Origin: an uncultured Opitutales bacterium
GTDB lineage: Bacteria > Verrucomicrobiota > Verrucomicrobiia > Opitutales > Intestinicryptomonadaceae
NCBI GenBank assembly: GCA_944389915.1
Contig: CALXOC010000022.1
Coordinates: forward strand, 1 to 32,349
Direction: 5' to 3'
DNA: 32,349 nucleotides
A model generated the notes under the pieces. The model saw only the letters and a list, made by a program, of their open reading frames with translations, was not told where the DNA came from and ran no database searches. The position numbers were made by a program, and so were the translations under genes. Positions 24,544 to 31,182 of the stretch are shown here, piece after piece (position 1 is the stretch's first letter; every line of letters begins with the position of its first letter).

Positions 24544-25419
24544 ATGAAAGTAATAAGGGCAAAAAGTGCGGGATTTTGCTTTGGCGTGGAGCGCGCCATA
24601 GGAATAGCCACAACCTGCGCGGCCGGCGGCAGATGCAGGGTTTACACCGATGGGCCTCTAATCCACAACAGACAAATGATGGAGCGCCTTGCGCAAAACG
24701 GCATACTGGAGATAGGCGACTATAAAAGCGAAAAGAGAATAGACGGCGAACTTGACTTGAGCGGTTCGTCGGACAGCGTATTGGTTTTTAGGGCCCACGG
24801 AGTTTCTCCCGACCGCCGCAAGTATCTCCAGAGCCTGGGCATGCGCTGCAAGGACGCCACATGCCCGGACGTGGGGAAAATTGCGGGCATCATAAAGATG
24901 CATGCGAACAAAAATTACACTACTGTAATCGTCGGAGACCCCGAACATCCCGAAGTCATAGGGCTTCTCGGCTACGCTGGAAACAGGGGCTACGTTGTTA
25001 AGAACAAGGAAAACATAGACGCCCTGCCCGACATAAAGGGAGATATTTGCATGGTATCGCAATCGACAATGTTTACCGACGACTACCGCGAAATTTCCGA
25101 ATATTTTAAATCGCGTTTTCCCAACACCAAGGTGATAGATACCATATGCGGCGCCACTAAAGAACGCCAAAAAGACGTCAACATTCTTGCGCAAAAGGGG
25201 GCGGAAGCAATAATAGTAATAGGCGGAAAACATTCCGCAAACACGGTAAAGCTTGCAATCATGGCCCGGCGCACCGGACTACCCTGCTTTCATATTGAAA
25301 CTCTAAATGAGCTCGATCTCGAATCCATAGGCAAATTCAAAACCGTAGGAGTAACAGCGGGCGCATCTACCCCCGATTTTCTGATAGACGAAGTCTGCAA
25401 CAAACTCGAAAAACTTTAA
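24544..25419 (+). CDS. ispH: 4-hydroxy-3-methylbut-2-enyl diphosphate reductase
   Basis: Last enzyme of the MEP isoprenoid pathway: reduces HMBPP to IPP and DMAPP with an iron-sulfur cluster. The three conserved cluster cysteines are C12 (SAGFCFGVERAI), C107 (DATCPDV) and C202 (DTICGATKERQ). Other family marks are YTDGPLIHN (about 34-42), VFRAHGVSPD (81-90) and GDPEHPEVIG (131-140). The C-terminal GVTAGASTPDFLIDEV is also standard. At 291 residues the length is usual. It follows cysS after 7 bp and precedes the large lipoprotein gene after 23 bp. Confidence 0.96.
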   Translation: MKVIRAKSAGFCFGVERAIGIATTCAAGGRCRVYTDGPLIHNRQMMERLAQNGILEIGDYKSEKRIDGELDLSGSSDSVLVFRAHGVSPDRRKYLQSLGMRCKDATCPDVGKIAGIIKMHANKNYTTVIVGDPEHPEVIGLLGYAGNRGYVVKNKENIDALPDIKGDICMVSQSTMFTDDYREISEYFKSRFPNTKVIDTICGATKERQKDVNILAQKGAEAIIVIGGKHSANTVKLAIMARRTGLPCFHIETLNELDLESIGKFKTVGVTAGASTPDFLIDEVCNKLEKL

Positions 25420-25442: not shown

Positions 25443-27770
25443 ATGATGAAATACAATTTCGCCAAGTTGACGATTAGAATAATATTTGCCGCCCTCGCCT
25501 TATTGGCAGCAGCGTCATGCTCAAAGAATTCCGAGGAAAGCAAATCGGAGAGGCAGCAGCCAAAGGCTGTAAAAAAGGTAAAACTCTCCGGCCAGGAAAA
25601 GGCACTAAAAAATGCCGGCCAGGCAAAGGAAAAAGCCGAAGCCCGCATTGAAGAAACTCCGAAGGAAAATAAAAACTTTATTTCCATATCGCTTCCTGAG
25701 AGCGGGGCAAGGGCGGGAGAAGCATTTGAATGTTCCGTGGAAATAGCGGCTCCATTCTCAAATCCCTTCAACTCCTCCGACATATCGGTTGAGGCTTATA
25801 TAAGTTCGGATTCCGCGTCGTTTTCGGAAAATATAGCCATGTTTTATATGGGGGGAGATTCAAAGAAATCCAAGTGGAAGTTTATAGTTATTCCTCCCAA
25901 GGCCGGCAATTACAAATGCTCATTCAATGTGCGATCAAAAGATGCCTCCTTCTCGTCTATGGAATATCCATTTAATGTGGCAGCCGGGGCAAAGCCCTCT
26001 TTATATAAAATTAGAAAGAATAATTTTTCGCATTTTTCATCTTCAAAAGATGATAATTTTAGGGGCATAGGCGCAAATTTTAACATAAACATAGACCCTG
26101 CGGCGCGCGATGCAATATTCAAGGGAATGCAAGCAGCCGGGGCAAATGTGGCAAGACTTTCAATAGAAGCTCCCCTCACGCTTATATTGCCCTCGGATTC
26201 CGGCATTTTAAAGGCCGGAAGCGTAAATATAGCCATAGTGGACAAGATTGAGGACTTTATGGATTCCGCAAAAAAACACGGAATAAACACCATAATATCT
26301 TTCTCAAGCCAGCTCTCTTTCAACAAAGACATGTGGAAGAATTCATACTTCGCAAAAAGCGGAGTGACGCCAGAACCCGACGACTTCTTTACTTCTCAAA
26401 AAGCCCAGCGCTTATACGACCGCGCCGTAGAATATCTCGCCTCCCGCATTGGAAGGCGTTCGGACCTTCTCGCATGGGAGCCGTCGTCGGGCATTGATTC
26501 TGTGAACACGGAAAATTTCGATCCGCGAATAAACTGGTTGAGCGCTTTCGCGTCGAATTTGCGCAATTTAATGCATGAATCGAGGCATCCCATATTGCTA
26601 ACTGCCGGAAGCTCGAGCGAGTTTGATTTTATTTGGAATACGGACGCATGCGACATACTCGCCTTTGAAATAGAAAACTCCCGCGATTTCGCCGAATCGG
26701 TAAACGCGCACAGCGATTTCTTTTCAAAGCTGTACAGAAAGGCAGTATCGATATCAAAAATTTCCAATACGGCAAAGTGGAACAGCGACCCATCAAACAT
26801 ATATGTGCACAACGCAATTTGGTCGGGCTTAATGACGCCGTCTCCATTGCTTCCGCTCGCGGATTTCACAAAGAGCGCCTCTATAAAATCCTCTATGGAC
26901 GTTTTAAAAAGGGTATCCGATTTTGAAAAACGCTTCAACACGGCTTCAAAAAATTTGGAATCGCTAAACCTGCAAAACATGGTAGTCGGCGTTTCAAAGA
27001 AGGCTCTTGAAAACTTCACGGAATTTCAACCGGCATTTGGAGAGACGCATCCGTCGCGCGAGTCTTCGTCGGACATAGCCGAAGTGCGCATACTTCCAAA
27101 CGGCACCATATTGAAAAACACGATGCCGGAAGTATGGAAAAGCGGAAGCACAATAACAATAAAACTTGACGACATTCCGAGCGACACCTGCGTGCTTTCA
27201 TTCGAAATTTCCGATGCTACGGCCCCGGCATTGCTTGAAATTTCCCGTGACAGCGAGCCTATAATGAAGAAGGACATCGCTGCTCCGGCAAAAGCTTCAA
27301 AAGCTGCAAAGGCATCAGAAACTGTTGACATAGCCCTAAGGAAGGGGGACCAGGTCCTAACCTTCAGGCTCATTCCAAACGACGGCGCAAAAGCGTCAAT
27401 ACGCGCGAACAACTTCAAGTTGGCGGGAACCGGTTCTAACAGGGGAGTCGCCTCGGTAAAAGTTTACGGCGTAAAGGACAAGAAAAGCTCCGCGACATAC
27501 CTATGGTTTAAGAGAGCCGCAACCGACACATATACATACAACAAATACAAGCTCTACAACCGCGACATTCCAATACTCAAATCTTTTGAGTACACTTTGA
27601 ATCTGGGCAACGAATACGCCATGCGCAATTTTAAAATAGTGTGGTGGGACACCCGAAATTCCAAAGAAATCGCCACGATTGACGCCAAGAGCAACGCCCA
27701 CGGCAAATTGAGCATACAGGTGCCGCAATTTAAATTCGACATAGCGTGCGCAATCGAGGAGTCGAATTGA
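25443..27770 (+). CDS. Large lipoprotein with DUF5060-like domain and glycosidase-like barrel lacking catalytic residues
   Basis: A 775-residue exported lipoprotein: signal peptide ending LAAASC (lipid Cys26), then a charged linker (28-75). Residues about 78-182 resemble the DUF5060 Ig-like domain of putative glycosidases. Residues about 195-500 resemble their GH5-like (beta/alpha)8 barrel, with GANVARLSIEAP, HGINTIISFSSQ and YVHNAIWSGLMT as anchor points. Where active relatives have a WELWNEVD-type acid/base motif this protein has AWEPSSGID (344-352). Where they have a GEFG-type nucleophile motif it has SISKIS (436-441). Both glutamates therefore seem absent and hydrolysis is unlikely. Residues about 545-665 look like a carbohydrate-binding beta-sandwich. 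A final domain (about 668-775, with KIVWWDT) matches the C-terminal module of the same proteins. It sits between ispH and gspG. The fold assignment is by pattern memory, not by search. Confidence 0.7.
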   Translation: MMKYNFAKLTIRIIFAALALLAAASCSKNSEESKSERQQPKAVKKVKLSGQEKALKNAGQAKEKAEARIEETPKENKNFISISLPESGARAGEAFECSVEIAAPFSNPFNSSDISVEAYISSDSASFSENIAMFYMGGDSKKSKWKFIVIPPKAGNYKCSFNVRSKDASFSSMEYPFNVAAGAKPSLYKIRKNNFSHFSSSKDDNFRGIGANFNINIDPAARDAIFKGMQAAGANVARLSIEAPLTLILPSDSGILKAGSVNIAIVDKIEDFMDSAKKHGINTIISFSSQLSFNKDMWKNSYFAKSGVTPEPDDFFTSQKAQRLYDRAVEYLASRIGRRSDLLAWEPSSGIDSVNTENFDPRINWLSAFASNLRNLMHESRHPILLTAGSSSEFDFIWNTDACDILAFEIENSRDFAESVNAHSDFFSKLYRKAVSISKISNTAKWNSDPSNIYVHNAIWSGLMTPSPLLPLADFTKSASIKSSMDVLKRVSDFEKRFNTASKNLESLNLQNMVVGVSKKALENFTEFQPAFGETHPSRESSSDIAEVRILPNGTILKNTMPEVWKSGSTITIKLDDIPSDTCVLSFEISDATAPALLEISRDSEPIMKKDIAAPAKASKAAKASETVDIALRKGDQVLTFRLIPNDGAKASIRANNFKLAGTGSNRGVASVKVYGVKDKKSSATYLWFKRAATDTYTYNKYKLYNRDIPILKSFEYTLNLGNEYAMRNFKIVWWDTRNSKEIATIDAKSNAHGKLSIQVPQFKFDIACAIEESN

Positions 27771-27817: not shown

Positions 27818-28261
27818 ATGAAAATGCATATTTCCAAAAAAAAGGCGCACGCCGCGCGCGGGGCGTTTACGCTCATTGAAATTCTGTTGGCCATAGCCAT
27901 GATATCCATATTGGCAACCATTGTAGTTACCAACATAGACAAGACCATGACCAGTTCCCAAACAAAAATCGCAGAAACTTTTGTAAATAGCTCTCTGGGG
28001 ACGCCTATGATGACGTTTAAACTGGCGATCGGGCGCTATCCTACAACTGAGGAGGGCATATCGGCACTATACAAGGCCCCCGAGGGCATTAGCGACAGAT
28101 GGAACGGCCCGTATATAAAAACCATACCTCTCGACCCGTGGGGCAATCCCTATCAATACCGTTACCCGGCGCAAAAGAGCGTTGAGGGCTACGACGTTTG
28201 GTCTATGGGCCCCGACGGCAAGAGCGACACCGACGACGATATCGGCAACTGGAAAAAATAG
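27818..28261 (+). CDS. gspG: Type II secretion major pseudopilin GspG
   Basis: Major pseudopilin of the type II secretion pseudopilus. A short basic leader (KMHISKKKAHAARGA) precedes FTLIEILLAIAMISILATIV, the class III prepilin segment, with Ala at -1 if Phe is residue +1. The C-terminal half has the GspG hallmarks PTTEEGISALYKAP, WNGPYIKTIPLDPWGNPYQY and the calcium-loop region SMGPDGKSDTDDDIGNWKK. AAAGGAG at 27807-27813/27808-27814 is one of the best ribosome-binding sites in the window. It allows ATG 27818 (close spacing) or ATG 27824 (9 nt); the longer frame back to 27746 overlaps the lipoprotein and is not favoured. It leads the gspG-K block, 47 bp after the lipoprotein gene. Confidence 0.93.
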   Translation: MKMHISKKKAHAARGAFTLIEILLAIAMISILATIVVTNIDKTMTSSQTKIAETFVNSSLGTPMMTFKLAIGRYPTTEEGISALYKAPEGISDRWNGPYIKTIPLDPWGNPYQYRYPAQKSVEGYDVWSMGPDGKSDTDDDIGNWKK

Positions 28262-28363
28262 CGCGCCTTCTTGCGCAACGGACGGCATTTATGCGAATGC
28301 GCAAAACATATGCCGACATTTTAGTGCCGTATTTAGCGCATTGGGGCAAGAATGGGGATTTTC

Positions 28364-28924
28364 ATGAAGTTCTCTGTTGCAATAGGCAATAAGAAGGCTT
28401 TCACAATAGTGGAGCTTCTTCTTGTGGTGGCTTTAATTGCGCTCTTCGCAGGGATAATCGCTTCAGCCGTAGCCATAAACTCCAGCACCTTTTCTGCAAG
28501 GGCTCCTGACAGGGTATTTCTAAACGCCCTCAAGCGCGCGCGTTTTGAAGCTTCAAGCCGAGGACGCGAAATATCCATAACTTTTGATAACAGGGGATTT
28601 CTCCTGCTTAGCGATTCCGAAACGTCGGAGGAAATATGCCGACTATTTTTAAAGTCCGACGTGCAAAAAATTTGGGAAAGCGCCTCAAAAGGGGGATCCG
28701 AGCCGGATTGGAGCAAATACCCCAACAGGGTGGAAATGAATTTTTACATTGTCCCGCCGCGCGTAATAGGCTCTACAACGAGGGAATATTCAGAAATGCC
28801 GGTGCGGAGATTGCGAATGAGCCCAAATACCTCCATGACTCCGTCAAAATTGGAAATACGCGAGGAGGGTTGTCCCGATATTACGCTTGAATTAGATCCA
28901 TTTTGCGCGGCGGAAAAGATTTAA
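28364..28924 (+). CDS. gspH: GspH-type minor pseudopilin
   Basis: Type IV pilin-like protein with leader MKFSVAIGNKKA and hydrophobic helix FTIVELLLVVALIALFAGII. The position directly after gspG and the size (187 residues) fit GspH, as does the basic block LNALKRARFEASSRGREISI soon after the helix, a common GspH/FimT pattern. The globular part is otherwise not conserved enough to confirm. Two starts are possible: ATG 28364 (GGGGA 5 nt upstream, used here) or ATG 28352 (GGGG 5 nt upstream, four residues longer). The 100 bp between gspG and this gene contain no recognised feature. Confidence 0.82.
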   Translation: MKFSVAIGNKKAFTIVELLLVVALIALFAGIIASAVAINSSTFSARAPDRVFLNALKRARFEASSRGREISITFDNRGFLLLSDSETSEEICRLFLKSDVQKIWESASKGGSEPDWSKYPNRVEMNFYIVPPRVIGSTTREYSEMPVRRLRMSPNTSMTPSKLEIREEGCPDITLELDPFCAAEKI

Positions 28925-28925
28925 A

Positions 28926-29414
28926 ATGAGGGGAAGATTTAACACCACTCAACAAGAAAACAGCAGCGGACTTACTTTGCGCCGCGCCTTCACGCTTGTT
29001 GAATCGATTCTTGCGCTGGCAATATTTGCCATGGCTTCCGCCGCCATATCCCAAGTATGCTACAACTGCATATATCCGCTGTCCATAGCCGACGAGAAGC
29101 CCGACTCCGCAGCAACAATGGATCTGTGCCTTGCCGCGATTCAAGACGTCAGCGACTACGACGCGCTCGACGACGGCATAGACGTAACCGGCCTCGACGG
29201 CACGAGATTCAGAGTCTACGGCTACGCTGAACCCACTCAAATTCCGGATTTGTTCGAGCTTGAGATGGTAGCGCGCGGAGAGTCTAAGGAAATCAAGACA
29301 AAGGTGCTTGTAATACGCAAGGGCTGGTATGAAGACACCAACCTGCGCGACGACCTCGTTGAAGACAGGACCGATTTTCTCGAGGAGAAGAGAAAGGCTG
29401 ACGTTAGAAGATGA
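28926..29414 (+). CDS. gspI: GspI-type minor pseudopilin
   Basis: A 162-residue pilin-like protein with a polar leader ending LTLRRA and then FTLVESILALAIFAMASAAI. GspI members keep the FTLxEVLxAL-like start, and this is the third gene of a G-H-I-J-K order, which supports GspI although the globular domain is divergent. It starts one base after the gspH stop and its own stop overlaps gspJ by 4 bp (ATGA). The C terminus is strongly charged (DLVEDRTDFLEEKRKADVRR). Confidence 0.78.
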   Translation: MRGRFNTTQQENSSGLTLRRAFTLVESILALAIFAMASAAISQVCYNCIYPLSIADEKPDSAATMDLCLAAIQDVSDYDALDDGIDVTGLDGTRFRVYGYAEPTQIPDLFELEMVARGESKEIKTKVLVIRKGWYEDTNLRDDLVEDRTDFLEEKRKADVRR

Positions 29415-30085
29415 ACGCAAGCGCGCGCAAAAAAAACAAAGCCAGAAGCGCCTTCACTCTTGTGGAGACCGTAATGGCCATAGCAGTCTCCTCCATAGTC
29501 ATGCTGGGCTGCTGCGCATTGATGTTCGACATGGTTAATATACTTGAATTCTTCGAGCGCGGCTGGACCCTGCGCGGGCACGCGGACGGAGTTGAAAAAT
29601 TTCTGCGCTCCATGGCGATGTCGTCGCGCTTTACCGATGCCTCCAAGATAGAGGAAACGCTTACGGCGAATTCTTCGGGAACTGTGGTTGTCGCAAAGTT
29701 GCCCGAGGACGTTCGCACGATGCAATACTATCTCTGTTTCGGAGTTCAGGAAGACATTCCATTTCTTCCCGCATTCAGGGAGTTGTCGCCTGAAAAGATA
29801 TGCTATCTGGTTCTCGACGACGAGGGGCTTTCCATTGTGTGGCAATTCGCCAACCCCGAAGACGAAGACGGCGAAAGAGCGGTTTTTAAAAGCGTGGTGT
29901 CGCGCTGGGTCAAGGAATTGGTTTACATATATTCAGACGACGACAACTGGGAGGAGGAACGCGAAATAGACACAAGCAGGCAAAGCATGCCAAGCTATAT
30001 AAAACTAATTTTTGAGAGAAAAGGCGAAAAGATAGAGAGAATAATAAGCTTAAGCGGAATGTTGGATTTTCAAATAGCAAAATGA
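29411..30085 (+). CDS. gspJ: GspJ-type minor pseudopilin
   Basis: A 224-residue pilin-like protein: leader with five basic residues ending KARSA, then FTLVETVMAIAVSSIVMLGC. Length, the larger beta-rich globular part and the place before gspK fit GspJ, which caps the pseudopilus tip with GspI and GspK. The helix end contains two adjacent cysteines (GCCALMFD), unusual for this family. It is coupled to both neighbours by 4-bp ATGA overlaps, so gspI-gspJ-gspK are very probably translated as one unit. Confidence 0.8.
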   Translation: MNASARKKNKARSAFTLVETVMAIAVSSIVMLGCCALMFDMVNILEFFERGWTLRGHADGVEKFLRSMAMSSRFTDASKIEETLTANSSGTVVVAKLPEDVRTMQYYLCFGVQEDIPFLPAFRELSPEKICYLVLDDEGLSIVWQFANPEDEDGERAVFKSVVSRWVKELVYIYSDDDNWEEEREIDTSRQSMPSYIKLIFERKGEKIERIISLSGMLDFQIAK

Positions 30086-31182
30086 AAAATTGCAAGACAC
30101 GCAGGGCTTCGGCCTTGATATTTGTGCTGGGGCTGGTTTTCGCAGCATCGGCGATATCCCTTGCGCTTGTTGAGTACGCCACCGCCGACCTCAAGCCGCG
30201 GACGTCGATTCTCCGCCAGCAAATACTCCGCCAGGAGGCATACTCCGCATTGAGCGCCGCCATAGCGGTCATAGAGGAATACAATTCAATAGACGGCGGC
30301 ATATATTCGGACTTGCAAGGCTGGGACAAACCGCTGTCCGACGGCCGCGTAAAGCTGCCCGAAGCTTCCCACGCCGACGTGAAAGTTACAGACGAAAGCG
30401 CGAAAATATCCCTGCGCGGGCTCGACTCTGCATCTCTTGCGAAAATCATAGAGTACCTCGGATTGTCTGAGCGCGACGCCGAAACTTGCGCGGATTGCAT
30501 TATAGATTGGTGCGACGAAGACGAAGTGGCGTCATTAAACGGCGCCGAAAAAGACGACTACAATACCGGAGAGGCCCTCCCCCCAAACCGCCCCATGGAA
30601 TCATTTAGCGAGCTGAAGCTGATAAAAAATGTCAGAGATTTGTTCTTTGACGAAAGCGGAAATGCAAATGATGTCTACAAGCGCTTCGTGCAAATAATAA
30701 CGCTCGAGAACACAACCGAATGCAATTTAAATTGCGCCTCTGAAGAGACGCTTGCCGCCCTATTGGCAATAGAGGAAAAGGATTACGATCCGAATTTGTA
30801 CAAGGCCATAAGGGGCCAGATAGGCTCGATAGACGACGGCATTGTGTGGGTCAAAAGCTTGGCCGAAATATCCGCGCGCGGGGCGGCCGATGTGCCCTCC
30901 AACGGAACGGGCTGCCAGGTTCAGCTGTTAAAGATAGAAATAGTGGTAAAAAGGGGAGTAGGCGAATACCGCCTCGACGCATTTTACGGACTTCCGGACT
31001 TGATGCAAAATACATCTTCAGACGGCGGAGCCGCGGCGTCGAAGTCGAAAACTGATTCCAATGCGTCGAAAAACGCCGACAAAGCCGGGCTCCAAAACGC
31101 CGCAATAAAGACCTCCAGCTCGTCTTCGAAAGAGCTTGGAACTTTCAGGATATTGAAAGTATTTGAACGCGGCTCAAAGTAG
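30082..31182 (+). CDS. gspK: GspK-type minor pseudopilin (pseudopilus tip)
   Basis: Tip subunit of the type II pseudopilus. The N terminus (KTRRASALIFVLGLVFAASA) is a pilin-like segment without Glu at +5, as is normal for GspK. The SAM-like domain carries the family block CADCIIDWCDEDEVASLNGA (about 137-156), followed by a gap and NRPMESFSELKLIKNV (about 172-187), matching the DWxDxD and N.PM.S..EL pattern of GspK. At 366 residues the size is right. The C-terminal 50 residues are low-complexity Ser/Lys/Ala. No outer-membrane secretin or ATPase gene follows; the next gene is on the other strand. Confidence 0.88.
   Translation: MKNCKTRRASALIFVLGLVFAASAISLALVEYATADLKPRTSILRQQILRQEAYSALSAAIAVIEEYNSIDGGIYSDLQGWDKPLSDGRVKLPEASHADVKVTDESAKISLRGLDSASLAKIIEYLGLSERDAETCADCIIDWCDEDEVASLNGAEKDDYNTGEALPPNRPMESFSELKLIKNVRDLFFDESGNANDVYKRFVQIITLENTTECNLNCASEETLAALLAIEEKDYDPNLYKAIRGQIGSIDDGIVWVKSLAEISARGAADVPSNGTGCQVQLLKIEIVVKRGVGEYRLDAFYGLPDLMQNTSSDGGAAASKSKTDSNASKNADKAGLQNAAIKTSSSSSKELGTFRILKVFERGSK

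Follow-up and report, generated by a model that had tools for sequence, protein, structure and literature searches.

The gene at positions 25443..27770 (+) of the window, the term used here for the whole 32,349-nt stretch of DNA analysed, begins with ATG and encodes a lipoprotein of 775 aa, referred to below as the pseudo-mannanase. Its predicted fold is that of a GH5 mannanase and it carries a lipobox, but both catalytic glutamates and the surrounding pocket are lost. This loss is conserved in orthologues with intact reading frames, and their genes are linked to the pseudopilin genes of a type II secretion system (T2SS). Six species have lost the entire cutting site and have nevertheless kept the gene, and the protein has therefore probably been put to use for binding or as a scaffold, without cutting. 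The account as a whole, a conserved and envelope-anchored pseudo-mannanase which serves binding or scaffolding without hydrolysis, is regarded as reasonably likely.

The first 26 residues (25443..25520, +) form a lipoprotein signal peptide, recognised from the sequence, and its lipobox LLAAASC ends at Cys26, which is invariant in 6/6 orthologues. It is followed by a charged low-complexity tether (residues 27-76; 25521..25670, +), where pLDDT is mostly low and mean identity among the orthologues is 21%, and by an Ig-like N-terminal domain at the position of DUF5060 (residues 77-182; 25671..25988, +), which has beta strands at 79-180 and is aligned to ManDH5 from residue 10. The degenerate GH5-type TIM barrel, delimited with DSSP, comprises residues 183-500 (25989..26942, +). 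Then come a CBM-like beta-sandwich (residues 503-672; 26949..27458, +), which is not found in ManDH5, and a C-terminal beta domain (residues 671-775; 27453..27767, +), which is common to ManDH5 (whole-model alignment to chain residue 564) and to Opitutales homologues. The motifs AWEPSSGID (344-352) and SISKIS (436-441), placed at these residues by the original prediction, are both present there, and YVHNAIWSGLMT occupies residues 454-465. Pfam gave no confident domain for the 775-aa protein; the PF16586 (DUF5060) profile did not match it at E 10, and matched one orthologue at E 0.036, under the cut-off. The likeness to DUF5060 is one of fold only, not of a PF16586 sequence match.

In a phmmer search of solved structures, the protein matched ManDH5 (E 2.2e-10), the DUF5060-GH5 beta-mannanase of Dictyoglomus thermophilum (PDB 9gmj, 9gpc); a search for DUF5060 and ManDH5 literature in a limited collection gave nothing useful. 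The AlphaFold2 model, built from a 16-row alignment, reached a pLDDT of 82 and a pTM of 0.81. When this predicted structure was compared by VIA-align, the top ranks were taken by five ManDH5 entries (Z 31.0-31.3), with an rmsd of 2.7-3.0 over about 510 residues (509 for Z 31.3). The structural alignment covers residues 77-774, that is the Ig-like domain, the barrel and the C-terminal domain, and the Ig-like fold precedes the barrel as it does in ManDH5. The barrel itself matches GH5 mannanases at Z 25-28. The lipoprotein architecture of DUF5060/GH5 type, which had been proposed from the sequence, is thus borne out by the lipobox and the predicted fold.

The phmmer alignment sets E303 of ManDH5 (the Q mutant in 9gpc) opposite Gly350 (codon 26490..26492, +), and the Glu of ManDH5 VGEFG opposite Lys439 (codon 26757..26759, +). 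The second of these glutamates is E392 by counting along the same alignment, and its position on strand 7 together with GH5 convention suggests that it is the nucleophile. In the model, Gly350 lies just after strand 342-346 (barrel strand 4) and Lys439 within strand 434-441 (barrel strand 7), and neither site holds a Glu. The acid/base residue is Gly in all six orthologues and the nucleophile is Lys or Ser, never Glu or Asp, whereas both glutamates are present in 19/19 aligned more distant relatives, a contrast beyond chance. The predicted loss of the two catalytic glutamates was therefore confirmed, and no orthologue retains an intact pair.

The change is not confined to these two residues. 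Barrel columns conserved in at least 8/9 active relatives were compared, and at eleven pocket positions (215, 238, 240, 244, 290, 349, 350, 409, 411, 439 and 474), where GH5 enzymes use Arg, His, Asn, His/Tyr and Trp, the pseudo-clade retains 6/66 cells, five of which are Arg238, against 101/198 cells at the other conserved barrel columns. The Fisher value for this comparison (3e-10) is descriptive only, as the eleven positions were picked from GH5 knowledge after the alignment and the cells are not independent. Residues Y302, R362, S391, D401, F408, D415, F416 and F427, in turn, are newly invariant in the pseudo-clade, and a conserved patch lies around 391-433. Relocated catalytic acids were considered among the pocket-side acids of the window protein (E242, E346, E409, E411 and D474) and rejected, since none of them is acidic in all six orthologues. 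D352 is invariant in the six, but it is no replacement because it is mostly Asp in the active relatives already. Judging from the sequences and the model, catalysis by the GH5 mechanism is almost certainly absent, and some other, non-canonical enzyme activity may exist. Sugar binding through the old active-site pocket, including a lectin role, is unlikely, because the whole pocket is gone, with its Trp, His and Tyr.

When the proteins of 88 relatives were searched, full-length matches turned up in the genus only, and orthologues are carried by six of the 14 genus species searched, the window's own included. One of the carriers, Puniceicoccaceae bacterium Marseille-Q1082, has been cultured. The orthologues are 33-41% identical to the window protein, and their frames are open and full-length, one copy being split by a contig end only. 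Profile searches of 273 genomes of the order and 388 of the phylum returned only more distant relatives and no orthologue beyond the genus, and a scan of a genome-contig collection recovered the same five further species and none outside the genus; the phylum and genome-contig searches relied on a sample or on pre-filtering by peptides. In the tree, the pseudo-clade is monophyletic (support 1.0) and has a long stem. In a four-gene tree, G006 and G012, two species which do not carry the gene, fall together with the carriers at weak inner support, and one gain and one loss is therefore the simplest reading. Isolated decay of the window's copy is ruled out, as the active-site loss is shared by five further species. 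The genus also has GH5-like proteins of about 500 aa (L009, L012, L014, L092), which are without the Ig-like domain and keep both Glu.

The pseudo-mannanase gene lies downstream of a gene (24544..25419, +) which, from its sequence and its well-known family, we take to be ispH, and whose relatives at the same place are 68-85% identical. The major pseudopilin gene gspG (27818..28261, +) is situated 47 nt downstream in the same direction; it matches TIGR01710 over the cut-off and has AAGGAG before its ATG at 27818. The minor pseudopilin genes occupy 28352..31182 (+), namely gspH (28352-28924), gspI-like (28926-29414), gspJ-like (29411-30085) and gspK (30082-31182). A prepilin motif was found on three of them and T2SSK_1st on the last; the gspH and gspK equivalog models match under the cut-off, and the gspI-like and gspJ-like genes are named by gene order. 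The gspG neighbourhood noted in the original prediction is conserved, as the pseudo-mannanase gene stands by the pseudopilin genes (gspG-K) in 6/6 carriers. The order ispH, pseudo-mannanase gene, gspG occurs in G000, G013 and G008, and spans two contigs in G007. In G001 ispH comes before the pseudo-mannanase gene and is flanked on its far side by the pseudopilin genes, which run divergently; in G002 the pseudo-mannanase gene is one or two genes from gspK and about 5 kb from gspG, and ispH is not within the stretch read. The distance to gspG is thus no more than about 5 kb in either rearranged carrier. In the non-carriers G003, G004, G005, G009 and G010, ispH stands directly before gspG (in G009 judged from the position of the gspG match). 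Around the pseudo-mannanase gene, promoter-like sites match shuffled expectation, terminator-like sites exceed it moderately and lie mostly on the other strand, and both are uninformative. The linkage to gspG may be a matter of inherited position only.

The original prediction had also proposed a carbohydrate-binding or structural role. This does not hold for the old active site; the CBM-like domain could still bind, and the beta-sandwich and the Ig-like domain are possible remaining binding surfaces. Folded alone, the sandwich reached a pLDDT of 74; its best match (Z 10.1) is the C-terminal part of a rhamnogalacturonan lyase (residues 339-508), and the next are CBM6/35/36/51 (Z 7-8), so that its modelled fold is that of a CBM sandwich of the family 6/35/36/51 type. 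A glycan-binding surface protein, in which this predicted sandwich and not the barrel would hold mannan or another polysaccharide, is a genuine prospect, though short of an even chance. It is consistent with the fold, with a weak profile match to a CBM35 (E 0.0043) and with the fact that the relatives of the pseudo-mannanase are mannanases. However, active homologues carry the sandwich too, it is the least conserved folded part of the protein (33%), and Z values of 7-10 indicate likeness of fold only.

The pseudo-mannanase may work together with the T2SS pseudopilins, either as an accessory or as a client, but we hold this view only tentatively. GspD-, GspE- and GspF-like genes are present in the window genome on another contig (contig 57), all below curated cut-offs. 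The pseudo-mannanase is not found wherever the T2SS is, as a clear T2SS without it occurs in six species of the genus, which are 6/7 of the non-carriers with pseudopilin genes. In G003 (L051), gspG is below the cut-off, a full GspD match is lacking and the T2SS looks reduced. G011, a single contig with a reported completeness of 95%, stands apart from the other 13 genus genomes in that neither gspG nor a secretin gave any match, and is therefore not counted as informative; a real loss or a data problem is possible. A second secretin-type cluster was seen in G000 on contig 18 (L100, 1-6457), with all matches below curated cut-offs, and it resembles the Akkermansia pilus proteins Amuc_1098-1101. 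To our knowledge, the parts and clients of the T2SS have been little studied in Verrucomicrobiota.

As a client, the pseudo-mannanase would be a surface lipoprotein exported by the adjacent T2SS, like pullulanase in Klebsiella. The lipobox and the proximity to the pseudopilin cluster in all six carriers, and the GspDEF-like genes elsewhere in the genome, are in line with such a role, and PulA and InvL set a precedent as T2SS clients with a lipobox (PMC12802150). For T2SS lipoproteins to be exported to the surface, GspN is reported to be required, as is a motif rich in glycine/serine or in Asn/Asp behind the lipobox Cys (PMC12802150), a rule drawn from proteobacteria that may not hold for this genus. 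Searched with PF01203, a Pfam model that may miss divergent forms, GspN was found in 0/14 genus genomes, and neither GGG nor ND(N/D) follows the lipobox Cys in the window protein (CSKNSEES) or in the other five orthologues. These results, along with the T2SS-bearing species that have no copy, make the client role rather unlikely. The suggestion that the protein is a component or client of the secretion system accordingly finds no support as regards a component or a client using the known GspN route, while a client or accessory of another kind is plausible from the linkage. That a clade-specific pseudo-mannanase lipoprotein was recruited as a dedicated partner of the T2SS pseudopilus, as a client-docking scaffold or regulator, is unlikely.

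An accessory role, in which the anchored pseudo-barrel would bind pseudopilins, secretin or clients and adjust the machine, is more unlikely still. The short distance to gspG in the window and the fact that the gene has stayed close to the cluster in the rearranged G001 and G002 point towards it; against it, same-genus species with a T2SS are missing the gene, and gspG is on the opposite strand in 2/6 species. Ordinary decay of a dying glycosidase gene without function could explain the lost active site and the missing gene in the subclade species G006 and G012, but full-length open frames at such divergence, new invariant residues and a loss common to all orthologues make it very improbable.

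The preferred reading, an envelope-anchored pseudo-mannanase without hydrolytic function, would have arisen as follows. The ancestor of the genus would have held a glycosidase of DUF5060-GH5 type, and in one subclade a copy at the ispH-gspG junction may have been stripped of its catalytic pocket entirely, earlier than the split of the present species. Having become a lipoprotein, with its charged tether, the pocket-less copy would have been retained at the envelope as an anchored protein for binding or scaffolding, without hydrolysis. Its presumed site is the outer membrane, and binding would involve the CBM-like sandwich, the Ig-like domain or the surface newly conserved in the pseudo-clade, in place of the old pocket.

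Summarizing, six dead orthologues set against nineteen intact relatives, with the pocket stripped and the fold held, provide a clear-cut example of a pseudo-glycosidase in bacteria. They are also a warning, as fold or GH5 annotation alone would label this protein an enzyme. If a secretion role proved true, it would represent a new kind of T2SS accessory in Verrucomicrobiota. The pseudo-mannanase resembles PulA, which is exported by the T2SS in Klebsiella, in being a glycosidase-fold lipoprotein whose gene lies beside T2SS genes. PulA, however, is an active enzyme needing PulN/GspN (PMC12802150), and neither feature was seen for the pseudo-mannanase. With ManDH5 it has in common the Ig-like domain, the GH5 barrel and the C-terminal beta domain, and it differs in the replacement of E303 by Gly350 and of E392 by Lys439, in the loss of the aromatic and His residues of the pocket, and in the extra sandwich domain, lipobox and tether. 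Full-length homologues from the same taxonomic order (family f14; G247, G145 and G178) match its four-domain order, sandwich and C-terminal domain included. Unlike the pseudo-mannanase, they retain the pocket in full, together with both Glu, with no lipobox seen and no gspG match near the gene. Klotho and the chitinase-like lectins are non-catalytic proteins of glycoside hydrolase fold, in which the barrel is retained, the catalytic acids are lost and the use is in binding. Although these belong to other families and hosts, and the pseudo-mannanase is also without most of its pocket, it resembles them in retaining the barrel without the catalytic acids.
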